This document shows positions 4,626 to 18,908 of a stretch of 33,666 nucleotides of DNA, piece by piece. Below the pieces are notes generated by a model. That model had not been told where the DNA came from. It did no database searches and saw only the letters and a program-made list of their open reading frames with translations. The stretch comes from a bacterium (GTDB lineage Bacteria > Vulcanimicrobiota > Vulcanimicrobiia > Vulcanimicrobiales > Vulcanimicrobiaceae), in the NCBI GenBank assembly GCA_021794175.1, contig JAJYRI010000017.1:1-33666 (forward strand), in the 5' to 3' direction. The number at the start of each line of letters is the position of its first letter. The stretch's first letter is position 1. Both the position numbers and the translations under genes were made by a program.

Positions 4626-5552
4626 TTAGCTCCGCCGTACAAGCGTCCTGTAGGTCAGCCGCTTGCAGTCCGCGCCCTTAACGGCTTTCGCGAAGCGTGG
4701 GCCATCCTCGTTCTCGCGCTCGTTGAAGCGGAAGATTTGCTCGTCGAGGTAGCGGTCAAGGTGTTGCGGGCGCAGAGCGATATAGGTTCCGCCGATCGTG
4801 CGCTTCAGCACGCTCCAGAAGTTCTCGATGGAGTTCGTATGCACGCGACCTTCGACGTACTTCTCGGCGTGGTTAATGACTTCGTGACGATAGGAGCACT
4901 GAAGCCCGGTGTACGAACCGAGAGAATCGGTATAGACCGTCGAGCCGGGAGCCACAGAGTCGACCACCTTCGGTAAGAGCGTTCCCTTTGTGGTGTCCTT
5001 GACGACGAAGGCCCGGGTCTTGCCGCCGCGCTCACGCAAACCCATGACGATGGTCTTACGGTATGCCGGGCCTCTGGCTTTTTTTGAGGTATCGCCGTAA
5101 CGGTTAATCGAGCGCGCCTTCGGGCCGACGTAGGTTTCGTCAACTTCGACTTCGCCTGCGAGCTTCTCGAAGTTCCTGTCTTGCATGGCGAGCCGAATAC
5201 GGTGAAGCATGAACCACGCGGTCTTTTGGGTGACATGTAAGGCGCGGGCGGCCTCGCACGATGAGATGCCGTTCCGGGCAGCCGAAAGCAGCCACATGGC
5301 CGGAAGCCATTTATCAAACCCGAGTGGGCTATCCTCGAAGATCGAGTTGACCTTCGCCGTGAACTCGCGCTTGCAGTCGCGGCAAAACCAACGAGGGCGC
5401 TTGCCGCATATCTCGCGCACATTGGCCGATCCGCAACCCATCCGGGGGCACGCAACGCCATTAGGCCAACGGAGGCGCTTCACGAAGTCATGAGCGCGCT
5501 GTGCGTCCGAGAAGTAGAGGATCGCCTCGACAAGCGTTTCTGGAGTATCCAT
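4626..5552 (-). CDS. IS1595-family (ISXO2-like) transposase B
   Basis: This 308-aa transposase should move element B. It has the zinc ribbon (CPRMGC and CRDC), a helix-turn-helix-like segment (ARNGISSCEAARALHVTQKTA) and catalytic motifs VEVDETYVGPK, VYTDSLGSY and HTNSIENFWSVLKRTIGGTY. The length equals transposase A exactly, and the sequences align end to end but differ throughout. The start is ATG 5552 (MDTPETLVEA). The frame is open much further upstream, to 6374, but that extension crosses the IS end and runs antisense to the peroxiredoxin gene, so it is not real. Confidence 0.95.
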   Translation of the reverse strand: MDTPETLVEAILYFSDAQRAHDFVKRLRWPNGVACPRMGCGSANVREICGKRPRWFCRDCKREFTAKVNSIFEDSPLGFDKWLPAMWLLSAARNGISSCEAARALHVTQKTAWFMLHRIRLAMQDRNFEKLAGEVEVDETYVGPKARSINRYGDTSKKARGPAYRKTIVMGLRERGGKTRAFVVKDTTKGTLLPKVVDSVAPGSTVYTDSLGSYTGLQCSYRHEVINHAEKYVEGRVHTNSIENFWSVLKRTIGGTYIALRPQHLDRYLDEQIFRFNERENEDGPRFAKAVKGADCKRLTYRTLVRRS

Positions 5553-5558
5553 AGGTAG

Positions 5559-5587
5559 ATGATACCGCACATTATCTAAGGCGTCAA
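5559..5587 (-). promoter_or_regulatory. transposase B promoter, -35 inside the terminal repeat
   Basis: On the minus strand TTGACG (5587-5582) is followed after exactly 17 nt by TATCAT (5564-5559), and the ATG lies 6 nt further. Spacing and placement match transposase A. A leaderless transcript is predicted. Confidence 0.68.
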
Positions 5588-5600
5588 GTATATAACGTCG
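5576..5600. repeat. right terminal inverted repeat of element B
   Basis: This matches the reverse complement of 2316-2340 with 2 mismatches. It contains the -35 box of the transposase B promoter. Confidence 0.88.
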
Positions 5601-5608
5601 ATTATATA
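5601..5608. repeat. 8-bp target duplication attatata, right of element B
   Basis: This is identical to 2308-2315. The two copies bracket element B exactly. Confidence 0.78.
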
Positions 5609-5629
5609 CGACATTATATTCTTGACGCC
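5609..5629. repeat. solitary IS1595-type end (remnant of a third element)
   Basis: The sequence starts cgacattatattcttgacg, which matches the left end of element B and the reverse complement of its right end with few differences. No transposase or partner end is visible to its right, where host sequence begins. It is probably the leftover end of an earlier insertion at the same site. Confidence 0.65.
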
Positions 5630-5753
5630 ACCGCAGGGGAGGCTGGGGCCTCGCTGCAACCCGAGGGCACGAGCACGCGTCATACCGAGTGGCCGCACGA
5701 GCGGCCGCAGAAACTCTCACCACCCCGCTCGTCTGTAAGGAATTTTCAAGAGT

Positions 5754-6305
5754 ATGGTTCAGGTTGGTAAAGCAGCCCCAGAGTTTACATTGGCCAGCAC
5801 CAAGGGTGCGACCAGTGCAAAAGATCTCGGAAAAGAGATCTCGCTGAGCGACTATAAGGGCAAATGGCTCGTCTTCTTCTTCTATCCGCTCGATTTCACG
5901 TTCGTCTGCCCGACGGAGATTACCGCGCTCTCCGATCGCGCCTCGGAGTTTCAAGAGTTTGATTGCGAGATTCTCGGCTGTTCGACCGACTCGGTGTTCA
6001 GCCACTGGGCGTGGTTGAATACGCCGCGTGAGAAAAACGGCATCGTCGGCACGCAATTCCCGCTCGTCTCCGATTTCACGAAGTCGGTCGCGCGCGCGTA
6101 CGGCGTTCTCGATGAAAAGAGCGGCGTCTCGCAGCGCGGGCTCTTCATCATCGATCCCGAAGGCGTTCTCAAATACGCCGTCGTTACCGACGATAACGTC
6201 GGCCGCAGCGTCGAAGAGACCTTGCGCGTTTTGCAGGCGCTGCAGACCGGCGGGCTCTGCCCGGCGGAATGGAAGCCCGGCAAAGCCCTGTTGCAGAAGG
6301 CATAA
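5754..6305 (+). CDS. 2-Cys peroxiredoxin (AhpC/TSA family)
   Basis: This thiol peroxidase reduces H2O2 and organic peroxides in the cytoplasm. The 183-aa protein has the peroxidatic Cys52 in FTFVCPTE and a resolving Cys169 in GGLCPAEWKPG, so it is a typical two-cysteine, AhpC-like enzyme of normal length. Its stop TAA overlaps the ATG of the next gene (taATG), so the two are translated together. That partner has a CxxC motif and may be its reductant. Candidate ribosome site aagga is 12 nt upstream. The IS block ends 124 nt before the start codon, so its original promoter region may have been displaced. Confidence 0.95.
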   Translation: MVQVGKAAPEFTLASTKGATSAKDLGKEISLSDYKGKWLVFFFYPLDFTFVCPTEITALSDRASEFQEFDCEILGCSTDSVFSHWAWLNTPREKNGIVGTQFPLVSDFTKSVARAYGVLDEKSGVSQRGLFIIDPEGVLKYAVVTDDNVGRSVEETLRVLQALQTGGLCPAEWKPGKALLQKA

Positions 6306-6766
6306 TGGCGCTCCGGATGCGCAGCCCCCTCCCGTCGTTGGAGGGGGTTGCAACCTGGTGCAACGGCGGCGCACCGAGCGCCGACGAACTCGCCGGGAGA
6401 GCTGTCGTCATCAGCTTTTGGTCGCTGAGCTGTCACCTCTGCCACGAGAGCGCGGAAGCATTCGCGCGCGTGCGCGATCGCTTTGCGCCGCTGGGCGTCG
6501 CATTCGTTGCGATCCATCAACCGCGCTCGGAGAGCGAACTCGATATCCCCGTGGTCGAGGCCGATGCACGCGGTGAGATGCAAATAACGCAGCCCTGCGC
6601 GATCGACAACGAACATACGCTCGTCGATCGATTTGAAAATCAGTTCGTGCCGGCGTTCTACGTCTTCAATCGCCATCACGAATTGCGGCATTTCCAAGCC
6701 GGCGGCAAAGGCTTCGACCGCGTCGTAACGGCGATCGAGCGCGTCGTGGAGGAGGCCCCGGTCTAG
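6305..6766 (+). CDS. thioredoxin-fold protein with CxxC (TlpA/ResA-like, cytoplasmic)
   Basis: The 153-aa thioredoxin-fold protein has a redox CHLC motif (in SFWSLSCHLCHESAEAF). Near the C terminus it has the usual Pro-bearing strand (FVPAFYVFNRHHEL) and a Gly-rich turn (FQAGGKGFDRVV). No signal peptide or lipobox is seen, unlike secreted TlpA/ResA proteins. ATG 6305 overlaps the peroxiredoxin stop codon, so coupled translation is likely. It probably reduces the peroxiredoxin or another thiol partner. The next gene, the TfuA-YcaO enzyme, begins 41 nt downstream on the same strand, so all may share one mRNA. Confidence 0.88.
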   Translation: MALRMRSPLPSLEGVATWCNGGAPSADELAGRAVVISFWSLSCHLCHESAEAFARVRDRFAPLGVAFVAIHQPRSESELDIPVVEADARGEMQITQPCAIDNEHTLVDRFENQFVPAFYVFNRHHELRHFQAGGKGFDRVVTAIERVVEEAPV

Positions 6767-6807
6767 GAACAGGGTTTGCGCGCTCCTTGCGCCAACGGGG
6801 CGGCACG

Positions 6808-8754
6808 ATGGGTGAAACGCTCGCGATTTTTTGCGGGCCCTCGCTTCCAAGCGAGGACCGCTTTGCTATTCCCGGCGCAACCTACTTGCCGCCCGCGGCA
6901 CGCGGCGACGTCGAACGCGCGGCACGCGACTTCGATGCCGTGCTGCTGATCGACGGCCTCTTCCATCACGATCTCGCCCCCGCGCCCAAAGAATGTTTCG
7001 CTGCGCTCGCCCACGCGCGGATGTTCGGTGCGTCGAGCATGGGCGCGTTGCGCGGCGTCGAGTGCGCGCCCTACGGCTTCGTGACGTTCGGTGCGATCGC
7101 TCGCTGGTACGCCGCCGAGATCATCGACGGCGACGATGAAGTCGCGCTGCTCACCCACCCGCAGACGCACGCAGCGATGACGGTTCCGCTCGTCAACGTG
7201 CGCTACGTCGCCTGGCTCGCCGTGCGCCGCAAGCTCTTGCGTCCCGACGAGGCACAGCGTTTCGTCGCCGGATCCCGCGCGATCTACTACATGGAGCGCA
7301 GCTGGGAGGAGTGCGTCGCACACGCACCGTCGAGCACGCGCGATACCTTGCTGGCGATCGCGCGCAGCGAAGGCGACCTGAAGCGACACGACGCGCGCTT
7401 CGCGCTGCGCAGCGTGCAGCGCGCGTTGGCGCGGCCGTGGCGCCGCGAAGAGCGCAGCGCACCGACAGCGCGCGTCGTCGCGAGCCTCGCGCCGCGCGAC
7501 AGCTCGCCGATCGTTCTGCCAGCAACGATGCCCAAGGCGCCGGGCACCTACGACCGCGCGGTGCCGTTCGCGCAGACGCTCGCGCTGCTTCCCGAGTTGC
7601 GACGCCGGTACGGCATCACGCGCGTCGCCGATACCACGCTGCTCGACCGCACGAGCATCCCCACCTACAGCGCCTTCGTACCGCATTCGCCCGATCTGCT
7701 CGGCGTCTATAACGGCAAGGGCATCACCCGCGAAGGCGCGATCGCGAGTGCCGTGATGGAGGCAAGCGAGCGACAGATCGGCGCACGCGCCGCACTCGTA
7801 CGGCGCAGCGAATCGCTGCGCCGCGTCGCGGAACGGATCGATCTCGCAGAGTGCGGCTTGCGCCCGGAGGCGCGCGATCTCGTCGTCGATTGCGTGCTCG
7901 GCACCGAACTGCTCTCCGGCGATGCGATTCCGGTGCCGCTGGCGATGGTGGAGTGCCCGTGGTTCGGAGAGAGACTCTTCACGACGACGAGCACGAACGG
8001 GCTCGCATCGGGAAACAACCCGACCGAAGCGATCTACCACGCGCTCTGCGAACTGATCGAACGACATGCATGGGCGCTCGCCCACGTCCGCTGCTCGCTT
8101 GCGCCGAAGTTCTTTCTCGGCCCCGATGCGCCCGAGCGCGCACTGATGCCCGAGATCGCTCTTCCCGTCGGTGAGAGCAACGTCGATTGGTTGGTCGGCG
8201 AACTGCGCGGCGCGGGGCTCACCGTTCACGCCTTCGCACTCGACGAACCGCCGCTGCCGATCACCGTACTCGCGTCGATCTCCGAACCCGATGCGGCGAT
8301 TCCGATGGCGCATATGGGGCTAGGCTGCGCGCTCTCGCCCGCGCATGCGCTCACGCGCGCGCTTACCGAGGCGCTGCAAAGCCGCGTCGTCGATATTCAA
8401 GCGGCCCGCGAGGATATGCTGCGCGCCGACGAACCCAAAGGCATCATGGGCGATCACGCACGACGCCTGAACGAGGTGCCGAAAGGGCGTTGGTACCTCG
8501 ATCTTCCCGCCGAGCGCATCGCACTCGCCGATCTTCCCGACCGCAGCAGCGAGGATCTTGCGACGGATCTCCGTGCAACGCTCGCGGCGCTGCGCGCATA
8601 CGGTATCCCCAGTGTCGTCGCAGTCGATCTCTCGCCGCCCGATCTTCCGATCTCGGTCGTGCGTGCGATCGTGCCCGGATTGGAGCAATCGATGATCACG
8701 AACGTACTCGGCAAACGTGCGCGCGCACTCCTCAATCCCTTCGCGGTGGCCTAG
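6808..8754 (+). CDS. TfuA-YcaO fusion protein, predicted peptide-backbone thioamide synthase
   Basis: This 648-aa protein joins two domains. Residues about 1-200 are TfuA: GPSL at 10-13, PPAARGDV, DGLFHHDLAPAPKE, GASSMGALRG at 74-83 and DGDDEVALL. Residues about 240-648 are YcaO: the ATP-binding motifs appear as MEASER (317-322) and E406 plus ELIER (414-418) in NGLASGNNPTEAIYHALCELIER. YcaO enzymes use ATP to activate a peptide amide; with TfuA as partner they insert sulfur to make thioamides (archaeal McrA thioglycine, thioviridamide-type RiPPs). The C terminus ends NPFAVA and lacks the PxPxP tail of azoline-forming YcaO proteins. The start is ATG 6808. The neighbours (methyltransferase, small leader-core peptide) support a RiPP role. 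The usual arrangement is two separate genes. Confidence 0.92.
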   Translation: MGETLAIFCGPSLPSEDRFAIPGATYLPPAARGDVERAARDFDAVLLIDGLFHHDLAPAPKECFAALAHARMFGASSMGALRGVECAPYGFVTFGAIARWYAAEIIDGDDEVALLTHPQTHAAMTVPLVNVRYVAWLAVRRKLLRPDEAQRFVAGSRAIYYMERSWEECVAHAPSSTRDTLLAIARSEGDLKRHDARFALRSVQRALARPWRREERSAPTARVVASLAPRDSSPIVLPATMPKAPGTYDRAVPFAQTLALLPELRRRYGITRVADTTLLDRTSIPTYSAFVPHSPDLLGVYNGKGITREGAIASAVMEASERQIGARAALVRRSESLRRVAERIDLAECGLRPEARDLVVDCVLGTELLSGDAIPVPLAMVECPWFGERLFTTTSTNGLASGNNPTEAIYHALCELIERHAWALAHVRCSLAPKFFLGPDAPERALMPEIALPVGESNVDWLVGELRGAGLTVHAFALDEPPLPITVLASISEPDAAIPMAHMGLGCALSPAHALTRALTEALQSRVVDIQAAREDMLRADEPKGIMGDHARRLNEVPKGRWYLDLPAERIALADLPDRSSEDLATDLRATLAALRAYGIPSVVAVDLSPPDLPISVVRAIVPGLEQSMITNVLGKRARALLNPFAVA

Positions 8755-9720: not shown

Positions 9721-10005
9721 ATGAATGACGTAGCTCGCCGCGCCGTCGCTGCCGGCTTTCTGCACGCGCTCCAAACCACACCCGCACTCTTCGACGAATG
9801 GATGAAGATCGCGAAAGACGATACCGCGGCGATCGGTGCGCTCGTTGCGCGGACGCTCGGCCTCGCACAGGTGCCGACCGCCGACGATCTCCATGCGATG
9901 GCGCATCACGTCGATGCGCACTTATCGGGGATGGTCGCGGAGATTCAGGCGGCGAACGCCGGCACTCCCAAGACCGTCGGGTTTATAGTACTTATGCAGC
10001 ACTAA
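9721..10005 (+). CDS. candidate RiPP precursor peptide (94 aa; leader 1-81, core 82-94)
   Basis: The peptide is 94 aa. Residues 1-81 look like a helical, acidic leader: [44 protein letters not shown]. This layout recalls Nif11/NHLP-type leaders (short helix, then a (T)A-D-D-L-x-A-M helix). The leader ends ..QAANAG, and a Gly-ending cleavage site would release [13 protein letters not shown] (82-94), hydrophobic, Cys-free and 13 residues like the cores of thioviridamide-type peptides. AAAGGA lies about 10 nt before the ATG. It follows the methyltransferase on the same strand after 109 nt. The last 14 nt overlap the convergent regulator gene. It could instead be an ordinary small helical protein; the TfuA-YcaO context is the main argument. 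Confidence 0.62.
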
Positions 10006-12556
10006 ACGAACGGACGTACCAGGCGGCGAGCTGCGCGCGCGAGCTCGCCGCCGTCTTCCCGAAGGCGTTCGCGATATGCCCTTCCACGGTGCGCTCGCTC
10101 AGCACTAAGCGCTCGGCGATCGCGCGGTTACTCAATCCCTCCGCGACGAGCGCCGCGATCTCGCGCTCGCGGCGCGAAAGCGATTTGAGTCCGCCGGCGG
10201 ATGCATTTCCCCGCTCCGTACCACCGAGCAGGTGCGCGGCAAAGAACGGAGCGCCGATCGCACTCAATTCCTCAATCAATGCTACGCGCTCGCCGTCAAC
10301 AACCCGGCGCCGAAGTACCTGCGCTGCGTGGAGCCGCGCCAATTGCGCCATCGCCTGCGACCAGCGCTGCCGATCCACCCGCAGAGAACCGGAAGCGAGG
10401 CGTTCGAGGAGTTCCGCATCGCCGAGCCGTTGCGCGGCGATGCTCGCGACTACCGGAATCGGAAAGAGATCGAGCGGGAGCGGGCGTCGCTCCATCGCCG
10501 CGATCGCCCGTTCGAGCAGCGCCCGGGCACGCTCGTGCTGCTTCGAGGCGTTGAGCGCGGCAAAGGCGCAGGCAATCGGGACGAAGGTAAAATTCCGCTC
10601 CTCGCTGAGAAAACGAACGCCTTCGCTCTCGACGATCGCCTCCAATCGGCGCGGCAACGTGCATTCGCCGATCGCCGCCGCGCTGGCAGCGAGCCCGACA
10701 AGCGCGCGTCCGGCGTAGGTACTTGCTATGGCAAGCAGTGAATCGTGGATCTGCGCGATCGCGTCGTCGCACTGCCCCACCGCAATTTCGGCGAGCGATC
10801 GCGCGCAGAGAGCGGGGAATGTTCCGATTAACGCCTGGGGCACATCGAGCATGCCCTTGACGCCGTCGGCATAGATTCCCCGCAAGAAGCCTACGTTCAT
10901 CGACATAGCTGCGGCGGCGGGCGGAGCGCCGCTACCGTCGACGTTCAGCGCGGGGAGCGATATCGGGGTACCGCCGCCACGATCAACCATCGCCGTGTCG
11001 AGGGCCGTTAAGCGCGCTACCATAATCGGGGATGCGAGCACCTCCTCAGGGAGCAGCGCTCGCGCGCGGAGGTACGCTTCTTCGTCGAATTCCCCAACGG
11101 CAGCCGCCATACGCGCGATTGCCAGCCCAGCCCGCACGTCGTGATGGGCGTGCGGCTCGCCGTAGCGCGCGCAGAGCTCGTCGAAGTGCTCGCGCGCTCC
11201 CGTATGCAAAGTAGAGAATAGCAAAGAGGCGATAAGTTGCGCGGCCCGCGGATCGCGAGACGGGTGTTCGATTCGCGCGAGCGCGTCGCTTGAGGTCTGC
11301 AGGCTCTTCCGTTCGTCGCCGGCGCCATTGTACAGCATCGATAGCGTCGTGCTCGTCGCGAAGAAGGCATCCTCGTCGGATTCGATCAGCGGCAGTAAGC
11401 GTTCGAGTGCACTCGCTTGGAGTGCGAAGTCGCGCGCCGCTTCTGCAATAGCAGCGAGACGCTGAAGGTACTCGCGTTCCAGCGCGGTGTCGCCGCAGGC
11501 ACGCGCCTGTGCGATCGCCTGCTCGAGATCGCCGCTCGTCGGTGCGGCGAGCTTCGCAATCGCCGCAATGATGCGGCGCCGATAGGGAACGTCGATCGGA
11601 ATCGTCTCGCGAATCGCCTGGGCGAACGCGGCGTGCCGAAAGGCGAGGCCGGCGGAAGTCGCGACGAGGTAGCGCCCCGAACTCGCTTGTAACAGCGGCA
11701 AAAAACGCTCCTCGCTCCACAACTGCCGAAGCAGCGCGAGCGGTATCGGTTCCTCCATCAACGCGAGTATCCGCAAGAACTCGCGGCGTTCCGGCGGCGC
11801 GAGCGCGAGATCGCGCGCGACGACTGCACGCAACCCGACGGTAACGCTCGCGGCATCCTCGCTCCCCGCCGCCGCAATCGATTCGGCGATGGCAACGATA
11901 TCGATCGCGCGCCCCGCAGCGACCTCGACAACGCGCGCGATCGCTTCGTCGCTTGCGCCCGGCAACAGCGCGCGCGCGAGCGCACGCGCTTCGGGCTCGG
12001 CGAGCACGTCGAGCAGCACCGATGCGTCACTCTGCGCGAGCCCCTCCCAGCCCGGCTCGTCGAGCCGCTCGATGGAGAGCAACGCAAAGCGTTGGTCCGC
12101 AAAACGCTCGATCAGACGCAGCAGGAGGGAGAGCGATTCGGGATCGCACCACTGCATGTCGTCGACGGCAAGGAGCAGCGGATAATCGAGTAGCACCGCT
12201 TCGACGAGCCGATAGAGCGCCTCTTCGGTCTTCGCGCCGTCCCGCTCGGTCGTAAAATCGCTGGGAAGTCCGGCGGCAAAAAGCGCGCCACGCTCGCCGA
12301 GCGCACCCAGAATTCCCTCGCCGATCCGTCGCGCGGCGGCCATCGGCAAACGCGCCTGAATGCGATGCGCCGGTTCGAGCAGCGCGAGCCAGCCCGCGTC
12401 GCGCGCGCGCTCGACGATCGCCGCGCCGAGGGTACTCTTGCCGATCCCGGAGCTTCCGACGAGGCGCAACACCCGCGCCACCCGTAGGTGCTCGGCCTCC
12501 TCGAGGAGGCTCGCGATGCGGTCGAGTTCCTTCGTGCGTCCGATCAGCGTTCCCAC
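9992..12556 (-). CDS. LuxR-family large ATP-binding regulator (LAL/MalT-like)
   Basis: This 854-aa transcription regulator has an N-terminal AAA/STAND-type ATPase with Walker [10 protein letters not shown] (34-42) and Walker [11 protein letters not shown] (127-136). A long helical, TPR-like middle (about 300-780) probably senses a ligand or partner. The C-terminal LuxR DNA-binding domain reads [36 protein letters not shown], followed by a typical last helix. The start is GTG 12556, without a clear ribosome site; a TATCGC about 5 nt upstream would allow a leaderless mRNA. It converges on the peptide gene and diverges from a small PAS-like gene. It may control either neighbour; no operator can be defined by eye. 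Confidence 0.92.
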
Positions 12557-12644
12557 GGGGGAGCGATACGCGAAAAACCAGGGGTTTTCCCGGAGGCGCG
12601 GGCACGGCGTTGGGGGCTATCGTAGGGGCATGGAGGATTTCAGC

Positions 12645-12995
12645 ATGTACGCACTCGCCACCGAGGCTGTTCAACCGAGCAACCCTACACTTACCGCAGC
12701 CGGCGGGCAACCCGAGATTCCCTACTGCTTCGTCCTCGACGACGACTATCGAGTGGTGATGGCCGGGCCTGCGAATGCCGTCGATCCCTTCGGCTCGCTC
12801 TACGGCGATGATGCCGCCGCCGATGCGCTCCCCGGCCCCATCGACCGGGCGGTCCGCGCGATGACCTCGAACTGGCGCGCCACCCGCACCGCGGGCTCCA
12901 ACGCCGCCGTCGTCAGCGGATTCCGCGTCATCGTCGCCCCGCTCAACGGTGAGAGCGGCCGCCGCATGGCGGTCTTCGTCGAACGGCACGTCTAA
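12645..12995 (+). CDS. small PAS-like protein (116 aa)
   Basis: The 116-aa protein has the pattern IPYCFVLDDDYRVVMAGPANAVDPFGSLYGDD, as in the first strands of PAS domains, then a helix (LPGPIDRAVRAMTSNW) and closing strands (FRVIVAPLNGESGRRMAVFVERHV). There is no output domain, so it is a stand-alone sensor or a partner for another protein. ATG 12645 has GGAGGA 7 nt upstream. A second in-frame ATG at 12630 lies 6 nt after a -10-like TATCGT (12619-12624), which also suits transcription starting just before 12645. It is divergent from the LuxR-type regulator with 88 nt between, suggesting a shared control region and perhaps a working pair. Confidence 0.7.
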   Translation: MYALATEAVQPSNPTLTAAGGQPEIPYCFVLDDDYRVVMAGPANAVDPFGSLYGDDAAADALPGPIDRAVRAMTSNWRATRTAGSNAAVVSGFRVIVAPLNGESGRRMAVFVERHV

Positions 12996-13041: not shown

Positions 13042-15669
13042 ATGCTCGCGCGAACGGGCGCACGCATGCGTCTACCCTTCGCTCTTTTCTCGCTGCTCGG
13101 CGCCGTGCTTTTCCTTGCTGCCGCGCCCTCGCCGAAACCCTCGCCGAAACCTGAACGCACGCCGCACCTGAGCGGCAACGTCGTACCGATCTCTTACGAT
13201 ATTCTCATCGGTCCTCCAAAAATCAGCAGTCGAGGCGGAACCGCGGTAGGCAGCGAGCGCATCGATGTCGTCGTGCATCGACCGACGCGCGCAATCGTAC
13301 TCAACGCGTTCTCACGGATCGTCATTCTCCATGCAACCATCGACGGCAAAGCAGCGACGACGACAAAGTACCCGATCGCACAGCAGATGGCTTTTGCTAC
13401 CGGAGCCGTCATCGCTCCCGGCAAACACATCCTCACGCTGCATTTCATCGGGCGGATATTACGGGATGCCAACGGCCTTTGGCCCGATGGTTTCACGCGG
13501 AAAAACACACCGAATTTTGTCACGCTTTTCGAACCGTCCACCGCGCGCACGCTCTTCCCGTGCTTCGACGAGCCGCGATTCCACGCGCGCTTCCGGCTGC
13601 GCGTCATCGCCCCCAGCGACTGGCGGGTCGTATCGAACGCTCCGCTGCAGAGCCACGCGCCGGTGCGAGGAAATCCGACGAACAGCATGTTTACCTTCGC
13701 GTGGACGCCGCCGATACCGACCTACCTTTTTACGCTTGACATGGGACGTTTTATTACCGTGCGCGGACACGCAGCGGGGGTTCCGGTAGCGGTTTATGTT
13801 GCGCCGGGGGCAGAAAAGATTGCCGCAACCGTGCTGCATACCGCGGAGCAATCACTCACGTTTTACTCTCACCTCTTCGGCGTTCGATACCCAATGCCGA
13901 AGCTCGACATCGTCGTTGCGGCCGGCGTTCTCAACGATGTCGAGGAAGGGCTCGGCGCGATTACGATTTATACCGAGTCCGACGTCTCCGGAAAACAATC
14001 CAACGGGGGCCTTGCCGACAAGCAGACCGCTTTCGATTATGTCGCGCAGCCGATCTCTCAACAGTGGTTTGGCGGCCTCGTCGGCATCCGTTCCTGGAAC
14101 GACGCCTGGTTGACGCAGGGGCTCTCGTCGTGGGCGACGCAAAAAGCAGAACAACGCTTTCACCCGGAGTTCGCGGCGATCCCTCAAGACGACGACTGGT
14201 CGTGGAACGCGATGAGTCTCTGGGGCTCGCTCGACGCGCTGCACGATCGTTCCGTCGACGATCGAGATCCATCGGCTTTCAAACGTATGATGGCCGGCGC
14301 GACGGACACCGGTGTCGCCGTCCTCACGCAATGGGAAGCATACATCGGTGCGGCGCGAATGAAGGCGGCGGTCCATCGTTTTCTCATCGCACACGCCTGG
14401 CACACCGCTACCGATGCCGACTTCTGGCACGCATTTCGTACCCCACAGGCTCGCCGTTACGGCGCTTCGTGGATGAATCAACCCGGCGCACCCGCGCTCG
14501 AGCTTCACGTGTCCTGCGTTGCGGGGACGCGGCGGATAACGTTCGCGCAAACGCCGCTCGTAAACGGCTATTTTCGCAGTTCGCCGGGCGCGCGTTGGTC
14601 GCTGCCGATCTCGGTCACCTATGCTGGTGTCGCGCACTGGCTGTTGCTCGATACCCGTTCGACGACCGCCTCGATGGGAACGTGCGACGAGCCGTTCACG
14701 ATCGATGCCGGATTGCGGCCGCCCTATCCGACTTTGCTCCCACTCTCCGTGCTCGACGCCGTCGCGCATGCGCCGTCGGCGGCACCGATCGATCGTACGC
14801 GCATCTTGCGCGATACCGCTGCGCTTTACGCAAGCGGGTTAGCAACGATGCCGCAATTGCTCGCCGCCGTGCGCATCGATCCCGGGTACGCTGTCGGTCA
14901 GGCGTTTCTTCGCGATGTTACGTGGGATTTGCAGGGCGCGGCGACGGCACTGGTTGGAACGCCGTACGAACGTGTTTTCACCGCCGAGATGAATGCAGCG
15001 CTGCTCCCATTTGTAAAGAGCGAGAGGACTCCGAAGGGGCCGCTCGCGATCCAAGAACTCTCCGAGCTATACGATCCCCTTGCATACGCGCCCAAGAAAA
15101 GCATCGCGCTACCGCTACTACGGATTTGGAGACACGAGCACGCGCCGAAGCAGCCGATTATTTTCAACACGCAAGCGGACTGGTGGACGGTCACATATGC
15201 TGCTTCTGCGGGAACGCCCGCTGATTTTCAATGGGCACTGGCACATGTCCCCGACAACAACGGCATCAACGATCCGGCGCCGTTTCTCTTCGGTGCGCGT
15301 GACCCTCACGAAATACTGGCGATTATCCATGCCCTCCGACTGAAACACGTGGACTATCCATCGGTGCTTTGGCGCTTCGGCCGGAAGCATCCACACTTGA
15401 TTTCGGCCTACCTCGTCCGCAAGACCAACGAAGTATTGCAAGCGATACCAGCGGCTAAACGCGGCAAGAGCTTTGCCGATGGGATTGCTCGCGGCCCCTG
15501 GGTCGCCCGCACCCCCGCCCAATGGCAGCGCTATCTTGATGCCGTCCTACCAAAAAGCGATGCGCCCGCAATCGACCATGCGATGAAGATCATTCGCGAC
15601 CACTGGAAGTTGCGGCGGCGCTTGGAGGGAGAGTTCTCCGCACCCAAATCCGCGTGCCGTCGGTGCTAA
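13042..15669 (+). CDS. secreted M1-aminopeptidase homologue, predicted catalytically dead
   Basis: The 875-aa protein has an N-terminal signal peptide (RMRLPFALFSLLGAVLFLAAAP) and then the M1 architecture: an N-terminal beta domain with FPCFDEPRFHARF, a thermolysin-like domain and a helical C-terminal region. The zinc site HExxH(x18)E is replaced: Q336-P337-I-S-Q340 stands where HExxH belongs, followed by WFGGLV, and Q359 stands in WLTQG where the third ligand Glu belongs, at exactly the right spacing. The GAMEN loop is GAITI (305-309). All ligand and catalytic residues are therefore lost while the fold is kept. I infer a binding or structural role outside the membrane. AGGA lies about 7 nt before ATG 13042; ATG 13066 is the alternative. 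Its 3' end overlaps comEC by 80 nt. Confidence 0.88.
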   Translation: MLARTGARMRLPFALFSLLGAVLFLAAAPSPKPSPKPERTPHLSGNVVPISYDILIGPPKISSRGGTAVGSERIDVVVHRPTRAIVLNAFSRIVILHATIDGKAATTTKYPIAQQMAFATGAVIAPGKHILTLHFIGRILRDANGLWPDGFTRKNTPNFVTLFEPSTARTLFPCFDEPRFHARFRLRVIAPSDWRVVSNAPLQSHAPVRGNPTNSMFTFAWTPPIPTYLFTLDMGRFITVRGHAAGVPVAVYVAPGAEKIAATVLHTAEQSLTFYSHLFGVRYPMPKLDIVVAAGVLNDVEEGLGAITIYTESDVSGKQSNGGLADKQTAFDYVAQPISQQWFGGLVGIRSWNDAWLTQGLSSWATQKAEQRFHPEFAAIPQDDDWSWNAMSLWGSLDALHDRSVDDRDPSAFKRMMAGATDTGVAVLTQWEAYIGAARMKAAVHRFLIAHAWHTATDADFWHAFRTPQARRYGASWMNQPGAPALELHVSCVAGTRRITFAQTPLVNGYFRSSPGARWSLPISVTYAGVAHWLLLDTRSTTASMGTCDEPFTIDAGLRPPYPTLLPLSVLDAVAHAPSAAPIDRTRILRDTAALYASGLATMPQLLAAVRIDPGYAVGQAFLRDVTWDLQGAATALVGTPYERVFTAEMNAALLPFVKSERTPKGPLAIQELSELYDPLAYAPKKSIALPLLRIWRHEHAPKQPIIFNTQADWWTVTYAASAGTPADFQWALAHVPDNNGINDPAPFLFGARDPHEILAIIHALRLKHVDYPSVLWRFGRKHPHLISAYLVRKTNEVLQAIPAAKRGKSFADGIARGPWVARTPAQWQRYLDAVLPKSDAPAIDHAMKIIRDHWKLRRRLEGEFSAPKSACRRC

Positions 15670-17920
15670 GGGCGATCTCGCCGTCGCGATCGGTACGAAA
15701 GACCCGCGCACCGATTGCATGCAGGCGAGCGAGCGTCGCCGGGGCGGGCTGCCCGTAGCGGTTGTCGCGCCCGACCGAGATGAGCGCGATGCGCGGGCGC
15801 ACCATCGCGAGAAACGCCGAGGACGAAGCGAAGCGGCTGCCGTGATGCCCGACTTTCAGCACCGTGACGTGGAGATCGACGCCTTCGCGCATCCACCAAC
15901 GCTCCATCGTCGCCGTTGCATCGCCGGTAAAAAGCATGCTGAACCTGCGGTAGCGCAGCACGAACGCCAACGAGTTATCGTTGACGCGATTCTTTCCGTC
16001 GGCGAGGTGCGGCAGCATCGGCCCGATGAACCGCAGGCTCGTTCCGTCGTCGAATCGCCATCGCGTATCGGCATGCGGTCGTACGATCGGAATACTGCGT
16101 CGGCGCGCAACACGAAGAGCATCGAGATAGGCCGGGCCGCTATAGCGCTCGCCCGGATCGACGAGCGCACCGACGCGTAGCGCGCGCAGCAACGGAGCGA
16201 TGCCGCCGGCATGATCGCCGTGCGCGTGCGAGAGCATCGCGAAATCGAGCGCGTGGATGCCACGTCGTAAGAGAAACGGCAGCACCGTGCGTTCGCCGAC
16301 GCGCTCCGCGGCGGCGAGGGCGTTGGGATCGTTTCCGCGCTCCATCTTTCCACCGGCATCGACGACGAATGCATGCCCGCCCGGCGTGCGGATCAAGAGC
16401 GCTTCACCCTGTCCGACATCGATCGCCCACACGCGCAAACGCGTATCGATGCCCTGCGGCGGAGCGAGCACGAACCAGCACGCCGCGGCGAACGCCACGC
16501 ATGCAGCGCGCAGGTTACGACTACGCAACGCGTGGAGTGCGAGCAGCAGCCCGACGTCGTAGGCGGCGATGCAGGGAATCGGTGCGGGCGTCATCGCGAT
16601 GCTTGCCGCCGGAAGCGAGGCAAAGAAATGCACCGCTGCAAGTTGCCACGCGAGCAACCACGCGGTGAGGTTTGCGAGCCCCGCCGCGATCGCCGGCATC
16701 GGCGTTGCAAGCAACGTCAGCGCCCCGCAGAGCATCGTCGCGCCGACGCTGGGCACGACGGCGAGATTGGCGAGCAATGCGTAGGGTGCAAACTGCAGAA
16801 AGACCGCGGCGCTAACCGGCCAGGTTCCGAGTTGTGTCGCGATGGTCAGCAACAGCGCCTCGCGGGCGATCCGCGGGAAAGCCATGCGTTCCAGCAACGG
16901 TTCGATCGCCGGAGCGCAGGCGATAATCGCACCGACGCACGAAAACGAAAGCGCGAACGAAGCACTCGCGATGCTCGCGGGCTGCAACGCGACGATCGTC
17001 AGCATCGCCGCCGCATATGCGTCCAGCGAAAGCGCGCTGCGCCCGAAGGCGTACGCGAGCAGCGCAAAGGTCGCCATCATCGCCGCGCGCTCGGTCGGCA
17101 GATGGGCGCCGGCAAAGAGCGCAAAGCTCCAGAGCACCACGAGCGCGAGCGCCGCAACGACGATGCGCGGCAACGGGAACGCACGCAACAGTGCAAGCGC
17201 AATCGCGAGAACGACGCCGAGATGGAGGCCCGCGGTCACCAGCACGTGTACCGTTCCGGTGCGGGTAAATTCCGCGCGCACCTCGGCGGGAATCCCGTCG
17301 CGCGTTCCCCAGAGCTCCCCCGAAAGCAACGCGACATCGAGCGGCGAGAAAGAGGTTCGCAGACGCGCCGATGCCCAGCGGTGCACGCGCGCAAACAACG
17401 AGAGCTGCGGCGGCGTGCGACGGACGGCGAGAATTTCGGCGTGCGCGAGTTGGCCGACGAAACCACGCTCGGCTTCGATCGCGCGTAGATCGGGATCGCC
17501 GCGGTTGCGTGGGGCATCGAAGGCTTCCAAACGGCCGCGCAGCAGCAGGGTGCTGCCCTCGGGCACGCAGTGCCGCAGCACCGCTTCGACGCGCGGGGCA
17601 TTCGTCAGCGCAAGCGCGGTGCGACAGCCGCCGCCGGGCAATGCGACCGCGCTTCCGGCGACCGCTTCGTAGCGCGCCGTGCGCGCGACCGCCAGCGGCC
17701 GATCGAACGCGCCCTGCAGGCGCGCGTCGAGACCGGCGACCAGGGCGATCGCCGTGAGGCTGAGAAAGAGGCCCGGCCGCGTTCCACGCCGCCATAGAAA
17801 AAAGAAGGCGACGCTCGCGGCTGCGATGACGGTCGCTCGCGCATCGGCGGGGATCGGTTCGAAGAGAGCCGCTCCGCACGCAAAGGCGCCGGCGATCGCG
17901 GGAAGGCTGAGGCGTTGCAT
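15590..17920 (-). CDS. comEC: ComEC/Rec2 competence membrane channel
   Basis: This inner-membrane protein carries single-stranded DNA into the cell in natural transformation. In 776 aa it has an N-terminal region with several hydrophobic segments, the Competence core (LSGELWGTRDGIPAEVRAEFTRTGTVHVLVTAGLHLGVV, then many membrane helices) and a C-terminal metallo-beta-lactamase domain with H565-x-H567-x-D569-H570 (LSHAHGDHAGG), preceded by IDVGQGEALLIRTPGG. It is full length with all three parts. ATG 17920 is chosen because AGAGGA lies about 8 nt upstream; the frame is open to 18172, but that part overlaps the divergent epimerase gene and is not protein-like. comEA lies 5 kb away on the other strand, so a competence pilus/DNA-uptake system probably exists in this genome. 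Confidence 0.94.
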   Translation of the reverse strand: MQRLSLPAIAGAFACGAALFEPIPADARATVIAAASVAFFFLWRRGTRPGLFLSLTAIALVAGLDARLQGAFDRPLAVARTARYEAVAGSAVALPGGGCRTALALTNAPRVEAVLRHCVPEGSTLLLRGRLEAFDAPRNRGDPDLRAIEAERGFVGQLAHAEILAVRRTPPQLSLFARVHRWASARLRTSFSPLDVALLSGELWGTRDGIPAEVRAEFTRTGTVHVLVTAGLHLGVVLAIALALLRAFPLPRIVVAALALVVLWSFALFAGAHLPTERAAMMATFALLAYAFGRSALSLDAYAAAMLTIVALQPASIASASFALSFSCVGAIIACAPAIEPLLERMAFPRIAREALLLTIATQLGTWPVSAAVFLQFAPYALLANLAVVPSVGATMLCGALTLLATPMPAIAAGLANLTAWLLAWQLAAVHFFASLPAASIAMTPAPIPCIAAYDVGLLLALHALRSRNLRAACVAFAAACWFVLAPPQGIDTRLRVWAIDVGQGEALLIRTPGGHAFVVDAGGKMERGNDPNALAAAERVGERTVLPFLLRRGIHALDFAMLSHAHGDHAGGIAPLLRALRVGALVDPGERYSGPAYLDALRVARRRSIPIVRPHADTRWRFDDGTSLRFIGPMLPHLADGKNRVNDNSLAFVLRYRRFSMLFTGDATATMERWWMREGVDLHVTVLKVGHHGSRFASSSAFLAMVRPRIALISVGRDNRYGQPAPATLARLHAIGARVFRTDRDGEIALSTDGTRIWVRRTLPPSAAATSSGRE

Positions 17921-17984
17921 CCTCAGGTTCCTCTGCGTCGAACGCGACGCCTGGCAAGAGCGTAGAATACGGAAAGAGGATAGC

Positions 17985-18908
17985 ATGCGCGTACTTATCA
18001 CCGGCGGCGCCGGATTCATCGGCTCGCATATCGCCGATGCATATATCGCGGCGGGGCACGAAGTGCTCGCGCTCGATTCGCTTTGGGAGCATGGCGGCGG
18101 GCGGCGCGCGAACCTCCCCGAGAAAGCCGCGTTCGTGCATATGGATATCCGCGACGAGAACGTCGCGCGCATCTTCGCCGAATTTCAGCCCGATGTCGTG
18201 AGCCATCACGCGGCGCAGCATTCCGTCGCGATCTCGGCGCGCGAGCCTCGCTACGATGCCGATGTGAACGTCATCGGCATGCTCAACGTGCTCGAGGCGG
18301 CGGTAAAGACCGGCGTCAAGAAAGTCATCTTCGCATCGAGCGCCGCAACCTACGGCAACCCGGAGCGCGTGCCCGTCGTCGAAAGCTCGCCGCAACGCCC
18401 CGTCTCTCCGTACGGCATCACGAAGATGGTTACCGAACACTACCTACGCTTCTACCGCGCCGAGAAGGGACTCGATTTCACCGCGCTACGATACGGCAAC
18501 GTCTACGGGCCGCGCCAGGATCCCAACGGCGAAGCGGGCGTCATCGCGATCTTCATCGGCCGCTTTCTCAAGCACGAAGGCGTGCGCATCGATTGGGACG
18601 GCGAACAGACACGCGATTACGTCTACGTAAAAGATGTCGCTCGCGCCAATCTCGCCGCGCTCGAGCGCGGCTCCGGCGAATGTTTCGTTATCGGCACGGG
18701 CGCGCGCACCAGCGTCAACGATATCTACCACGCGCTCGTCGATATCAGCGGCTTCGAAGCGCCGATTATGCGTGCCGAACGGCGCGCCGGCGATGCGCGC
18801 GATATCGGCTACGATCCCGCGCTCGCGCGCGAAGTGCTGCAGTGGGCCGCGCAGACGCAACTTCGCGACGGCATGCGCGAGACGTACGAGTACTTCTCAG
18901 CGCTGTAG
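17985..18908 (+). CDS. NAD-dependent sugar-nucleotide epimerase/dehydratase (UDP-glucose 4-epimerase-like)
   Basis: This 307-aa short-chain dehydrogenase of the extended type most resembles UDP-glucose 4-epimerases. The NAD-binding TGGAGFIGSH is at residues 6-15; the catalytic triad is Ser118/119 (ASSAATYG), Tyr143 and Lys147 (SPYGITK). The nucleotide-sugar site shows LRYGNVYGPRQDP and the late DYVYVKDVARA. The exact sugar cannot be told from sequence. AAGAGGA lies about 5 nt before ATG 17985. It is divergent from comEC with 64 nt between, and alone on its strand. Its product probably feeds surface polysaccharide synthesis. Confidence 0.92.
   Translation: MRVLITGGAGFIGSHIADAYIAAGHEVLALDSLWEHGGGRRANLPEKAAFVHMDIRDENVARIFAEFQPDVVSHHAAQHSVAISAREPRYDADVNVIGMLNVLEAAVKTGVKKVIFASSAATYGNPERVPVVESSPQRPVSPYGITKMVTEHYLRFYRAEKGLDFTALRYGNVYGPRQDPNGEAGVIAIFIGRFLKHEGVRIDWDGEQTRDYVYVKDVARANLAALERGSGECFVIGTGARTSVNDIYHALVDISGFEAPIMRAERRAGDARDIGYDPALAREVLQWAAQTQLRDGMRETYEYFSAL

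Follow-up and report, generated by a model that had tools for sequence, protein, structure and literature searches.

Background

Active members of peptidase family M1, such as the puromycin-sensitive aminopeptidase (PSA), ERAP1 and aminopeptidase N, are characterized by the HExxH-x18-E zinc site, a transition-state Tyr and the GAMEN exopeptidase motif. TAF2, a subunit of TFIID that serves as a nuclear scaffold in Eukaryota, has no peptidase activity. Its fold is aminopeptidase-like and is put to non-peptidase use (PMC4309443), as we propose below for a bacterial protein. Tma108, an M1 protein that acts as a translation-associated factor in yeast and retains HExxH-x18-E, is thought to be non-enzymatic; its pocket for the substrate N-terminus has been proposed to serve in binding and not in cutting, and mutation of an N-terminus-binding residue abolishes the binding of nascent chains (PMC11266112). 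In the same review of metallopseudopeptidases this eukaryotic protein, with its zinc site kept, is the one M1 case (PMC11266112). At the level of titles and abstracts we found no bacterial M1 pseudopeptidase in the open-access literature searched. Here we describe a bacterial M1 subfamily in which all five catalytic residues are gone, with a clear single origin and with active sister sequences. Within one genus some members carry the gene at a given locus and others lack it there. The subfamily offers a clean comparison for the reuse of a peptidase fold.

Gene and family assignment

The window (the whole stretch of DNA analysed, 33,666 nucleotides, on an Eremiobacterota MAG contig) contains an uninterrupted forward-strand ORF that encodes a full-length homolog of M1 aminopeptidases, in agreement with the intact frame reported in a preliminary description of this DNA. 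The gene and the sites discussed below are:

13042..15669, forward strand: M1-like pseudopeptidase gene (ORF and homology), 875 aa, or 867 aa from the alternative start at 13066
13066..13125, forward strand: probable signal peptide (MRLPFALFSLLGAVLFLAAA), assigned by eye; hydrophobic N-termini are alike in all lineages
13531..13533, forward strand: Glu164, equivalent of PSA Glu180, a likely anchor of the substrate N-terminus; present in every member
13936..13950, forward strand: GAMEN position, D299-V300-E301-E302-G303; Glu302 corresponds to PSA Glu319 and is kept in four of five lineages
14047..14061, forward strand: HExxH position, Q336-P337-I338-S339-Q340
14116..14118, forward strand: third zinc-ligand position, Gln359 (T, N, Y and Y in the other lineages)
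14302..14304, forward strand: catalytic Tyr position (PSA Tyr438), Thr421

Both domain profiles match above the curated Pfam cut-offs (Peptidase_M1_N: 80.8 bits, cut-off 25.8; Peptidase_M1: 67.4 bits, cut-off 27.7), which places the protein in family M1 as a homologous fold. Human PSA aligns with it over most of its length (phmmer E 9e-41) and matches a profile of the dead-site clade with E 1e-74. The ATG at 13066 is where the homologs begin. Antisense ORFs at this locus were considered as the real gene and ruled out by codon-position GC (GC3 0.69 > GC1 0.63 > GC2 0.51 for the forward-strand gene), by homology and by the conserved frame. AlphaFold2, run on three near-identical sequences, returned an unusable model (pLDDT 33, pTM 0.28). 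Judging by eye from the N-terminus, the protein appears to be exported, and two cysteines that are invariant in five lineages (C492 and C548) are consistent with this reading.

The dead site and its single origin

Genome searches covered 60 relatives, the class (117 genomes) and the phylum (149 genomes); a contig scan with a single M1-like sequence as the query detects close relatives only. Two public MAG contigs hold copies that are 98% and 96% identical. The protein with the dead site is present in seven genomes (G000, which holds the window, G003, G090, G019, G010, G093 and G095), and its first 50 residues are found at a contig edge in G001. With near-copies counted once these sequences make up five lineages from separate genera, 34-46% identical in pairwise comparisons. 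The G090 copy lies on a 3.8-kb contig (L041, G090:C33), colinear with the window and 97% identical to it, in the genome of another genus; this contig is probably misbinned.

The alignments bear out the preliminary description in that the HExxH position reads QPISQ (336-340) and in that the third ligand is Gln359 at the family spacing, with exactly 18 residues between. The zinc site is replaced in all lineages: the first His of HExxH is Q/Q/F/Q/Q, the Glu is Pro throughout, the second His is Q/Q/Q/L/L and the third-ligand Glu is Q/T/N/Y/Y, so that the motifs are QPISQ..Q, QPIAQ..T, FPIAQ..N, QPIAL..Y and QPIAL..Y, i.e. PI[SA][QL]. The transition-state Tyr, on which the preliminary description is silent, is likewise replaced (T/T/T/A/F); in PSA, the Tyr438Phe substitution lowers kcat about 1000-fold (PMC10343166). 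These substitutions are found again in the related lineages and are thus not due to chance. The GAMEN motif had been read as GAITI, which we trace to a misalignment: GAITI lies downstream, and in three alignments (phmmer, profile and a 34-sequence MAFFT alignment) GAMENW pairs with D299-V-E-E302-G303-L304, so that the position reads DVEEG and the Glu alone is kept. The earlier statement that every zinc-site residue is replaced thus holds for the zinc ligands and the general base, but not for the glutamates that bind the substrate N-terminus (Glu302 and Glu164), which are retained. The protein has in common with PSA, ERAP1 and aminopeptidase N both M1 domain families (N-terminal and catalytic), similarity along most of the chain and the N-terminus-anchoring glutamates, and differs from them in that all zinc ligands, the base, the Tyr and the GAMEN Asn are replaced. 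Since the ligands, the base and the Tyr are all lost, M1 catalysis seems implausible, and the catalytic zinc and the activity have presumably been lost.

When 34 M1 proteins are placed in a maximum-likelihood tree, the dead-site sequences form one clade (support 100/100), and the dead site maps as one change of state on the tree, as it does in 100% of 200 bootstrap trees. The sister branch comprises the active-type M1 proteins of G098 and G018 (L047, L039), which unlike the dead-site clade retain the Tyr and the zinc site, with HEMGH or HEIAH followed by the third Glu, and like it lack the Gly and the Asn of GAMEN. Since SALEQ or SALEG stands at that position in these sisters, the weakening of GAMEN preceded the loss of the zinc site. 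A loss confined to this strain, which had been named as the outcome that would speak against a retained pseudoenzyme, is refuted: close homologs lack an intact HExxH, and the nearest relatives that have one are about 26-34% identical. The dead site stems from a single ancestral loss and not from a strain-level event.

Retention under selection

Using 11 active and sister sequences we defined 69 invariant positions, of which 38 are kept in all five dead-site lineages, 12 are lost in all five and 19 are mixed; the five catalytic positions all fall within the 12 lost everywhere (Fisher p = 7e-5). Pro337, Leu297 and Gly345 at the pseudo-site are derived and invariant in the five lineages, and Pro337, Ile338 and Trp342 are invariant across sequences that are 34-46% identical. 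The window and the L003 copy are separated by 33 changes that are synonymous and 13 that are not (pN/pS 0.14, p = 5e-11). For pairs that include the L004 copy pN/pS is 0.33, a figure that errors may inflate given the coverage of 0.93 of the L004 contig, and ComEC compared between the window and L004 gives 0.18. Purifying selection, proposed earlier as the check to be made on homologs with the same pattern, is thus seen in close pairs (pN/pS 0.14-0.33). Patchy presence of the gene within the genus might suggest a recently inactivated and decaying copy, but this is contradicted by the purifying selection, by the age and unity of the clade and by reading frames that are intact in all five lineages, and we regard decay as very close to negligible. 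The characterization as a retained pseudoenzyme and not a product of decay stands on the intact frames, the monophyly of the clade, the fixed derived residues and the selection. Catalytic residues are lost in all members, and the frame and the fold residues are under purifying selection, as expected of a retained metallopseudopeptidase; from sequence comparison, a dead and retained protein is strongly supported.

Predicted function and its alternatives

In PSA the N-terminus of the substrate is probably held by Glu180 and Glu319 (PMC10343166). Their equivalents are preserved in the dead-site lineages, Glu164 in five of five and Glu302 in four of five (Gln in the fifth), as would be anticipated for a binder of the Tma108 type. 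Because this pair is kept, the cleft may still hold a free N-terminus, and the earlier suggestion that the protein binds peptides without cutting them is plausible and favoured by the pair. We infer, also by analogy with Tma108, that the cleft binds N-termini; the two proteins differ in that Tma108 has its zinc site, whereas the protein described here comes from a bacterium, appears to be exported and no longer has the site. In this reading the pseudo-active site was remodelled after a single ancestral loss and its new residues became fixed, giving a retained subfamily within one family of Eremiobacterota, in which the old cleft with Glu164 and Glu302 would capture N-termini of peptides or proteins outside the cytoplasm without cleavage. 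That the protein is an exported M1-fold pseudopeptidase of this kind, free of zinc catalysis and binding N-termini, is a prediction that we consider evenly poised between right and wrong. The third N-terminus contact, which is the zinc-ligand Glu, is lost from the cleft, and the GAMEN Asn, the equivalent of PSA Gln178 and the S1 Tyr are gone as well. With so much of the cleft altered and several contacts missing, peptides need not bind there, and Glu164, which lies within a generally conserved motif, may be retained for a structural reason.

A purely structural role is an alternative: as in TAF2, the M1 fold would be kept only to offer a rigid platform for surface or protein-protein contacts, and the old cleft would be functionless. 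The structural residues (the N-terminal domain motif, WFG and the Cys pair of domain III) are indeed kept while cleft residues vary, and the aminopeptidase-like fold of TAF2 is a precedent (PMC4309443). TAF2 differs from the M1-like protein in being a eukaryotic nuclear scaffold. Against a scaffold role, the pseudo-site does not drift freely, Pro337, Ile338 and Trp342 being invariant and Glu164 and Glu302 nearly so. We rank N-terminus binding first, at balanced confidence, and the scaffold second, as a possible but distinctly less probable role. The fixed derived residues (P337, G345 and L297) also fit a site remodelled for different chemistry, with another metal or by metal-free hydrolysis or transfer, in which case the protein would not be a strict pseudoenzyme, and "dead" enzymes have sometimes turned out to have new activities (PMC11266112). 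The remaining site positions, however, vary by lineage (Q/F, Q/L, Q/T/N/Y), unlike a catalytic center, and no conserved new cluster of His, Asp, Cys or Lys appears among the derived invariants, which makes this improbable. Regulation of an active M1 partner, e.g. in a mixed dimer or by competition for substrate, is a common role of pseudoenzymes (PMC11266112), but the class search (E<=1e-40) found no active secreted relative in the genomes that bear the pseudopeptidase, and the other M1 protein of the window's genome is of a distant type; we hold such regulation to be unlikely to a similar degree. Building on N-terminus binding, we tentatively suggest a further-reaching picture, which is itself rather doubtful: that the cleft of an exported bacterial M1 subfamily was turned once into a dedicated receptor or sequestering protein for N-termini, with a fixed PI[SA][QL]-x-W site, and that it passes from genome to genome as an accessory gene.

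Insertion site and neighboring genes

The genes that surround the M1-like gene in the window are:

6787-8751, forward strand: fused TfuA-YcaO gene, 88-91% identical over aligned stretches within the genus
9992..12556, reverse strand: LuxR-family large ATP-binding regulator (LAL; AAA_16 + GerE), a neighbor with no tie to the M1-like gene
12630..12995, forward strand: small protein (121 aa) of unknown family, upstream of the M1-like gene and separated from it by 46 bp; a neighbor outside the system
15590..18172, reverse strand: ComEC-type gene, whose 3' end overlaps the last M1-like codons; right edge of the insertion site

The gene order in the genus is regulator (-), small protein (+), ComEC (-), epimerase (+) and LeuRS (-). 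The M1-like gene lies between the small protein and ComEC in G000, G003 and, at the contig edge, G001; in G008, G005 and G004 the matches on either side are separated by 25-28 bp and enclose nothing. The gene is also absent from G002 and G006. It is thus an optional insert in a gap of roughly 25 bp, and since the right edge of the insertion is at the 3' end of ComEC, its last codons derive from ComEC antisense sequence. Instead of the M1-like gene, this gap in G007 contains a 2-kb AbiEi/AbiEii-type toxin-antitoxin island (L103 13559-15637); 17-bp perfect direct repeats of the 3' end of the small gene border the island, and the gap is thus an insertion hotspot. We looked for a direct repeat at the edges of the M1-like insertion and found none. 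Between the window and L004, synonymous divergence amounts to 35/651 sites for the M1-like gene. ComEC (77/615, p = 7e-6) and the epimerase (26/140, p = 2e-6) have both diverged more; the lower value suggests that the M1-like gene was shared more recently by recombination, the alternative being slower synonymous change.

A function had also been argued from the adjacent sensor/regulator pair and candidate peptide cluster. This argument fails: the regulator, the small protein and YcaO-TfuA also occur in members of the genus that lack the M1-like gene, and other genera have different neighbors, so we rejected a functional link to these genes. The small protein is 88-100% identical in 10 of 10 genus genomes, with or without the M1-like gene, and the ortholog tested has no Pfam match; by eye it looks PAS-like, and it is oriented divergently from the LuxR-type regulator. 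The neighborhoods in other genera (G019, G010, G095 and G093) include PNPase, a short-chain dehydrogenase and UbiD; an S9 peptidase; or an amino-acid permease and an amidohydrolase. They share no conserved partner gene, and hence no partner hints at a ligand across the genera compared. Near the TfuA-YcaO gene, a 94-codon ORF (9721-10002, forward strand) might be considered as a candidate peptide precursor. The left part of the window contains two IS1595-type transposase genes (1336-2259 and 4629-6374, reverse strand) and two ORFs with GC of 0.53-0.54, compared with 0.60-0.68 elsewhere.

The other M1 protein of the genome

The distant-type M1 protein of G000 (G000:C127, L001/L119) starts with MTFTQRIDDAHR and has no evident signal peptide by eye. 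Its sequence reads HELAHQW*GD, with an in-frame TGA just after an intact HExxH. The TGA may reflect an error in the MAG consensus or else a nonsense mutation of recent date; four relatives in the genus have TTC at this codon (HQWFGD).
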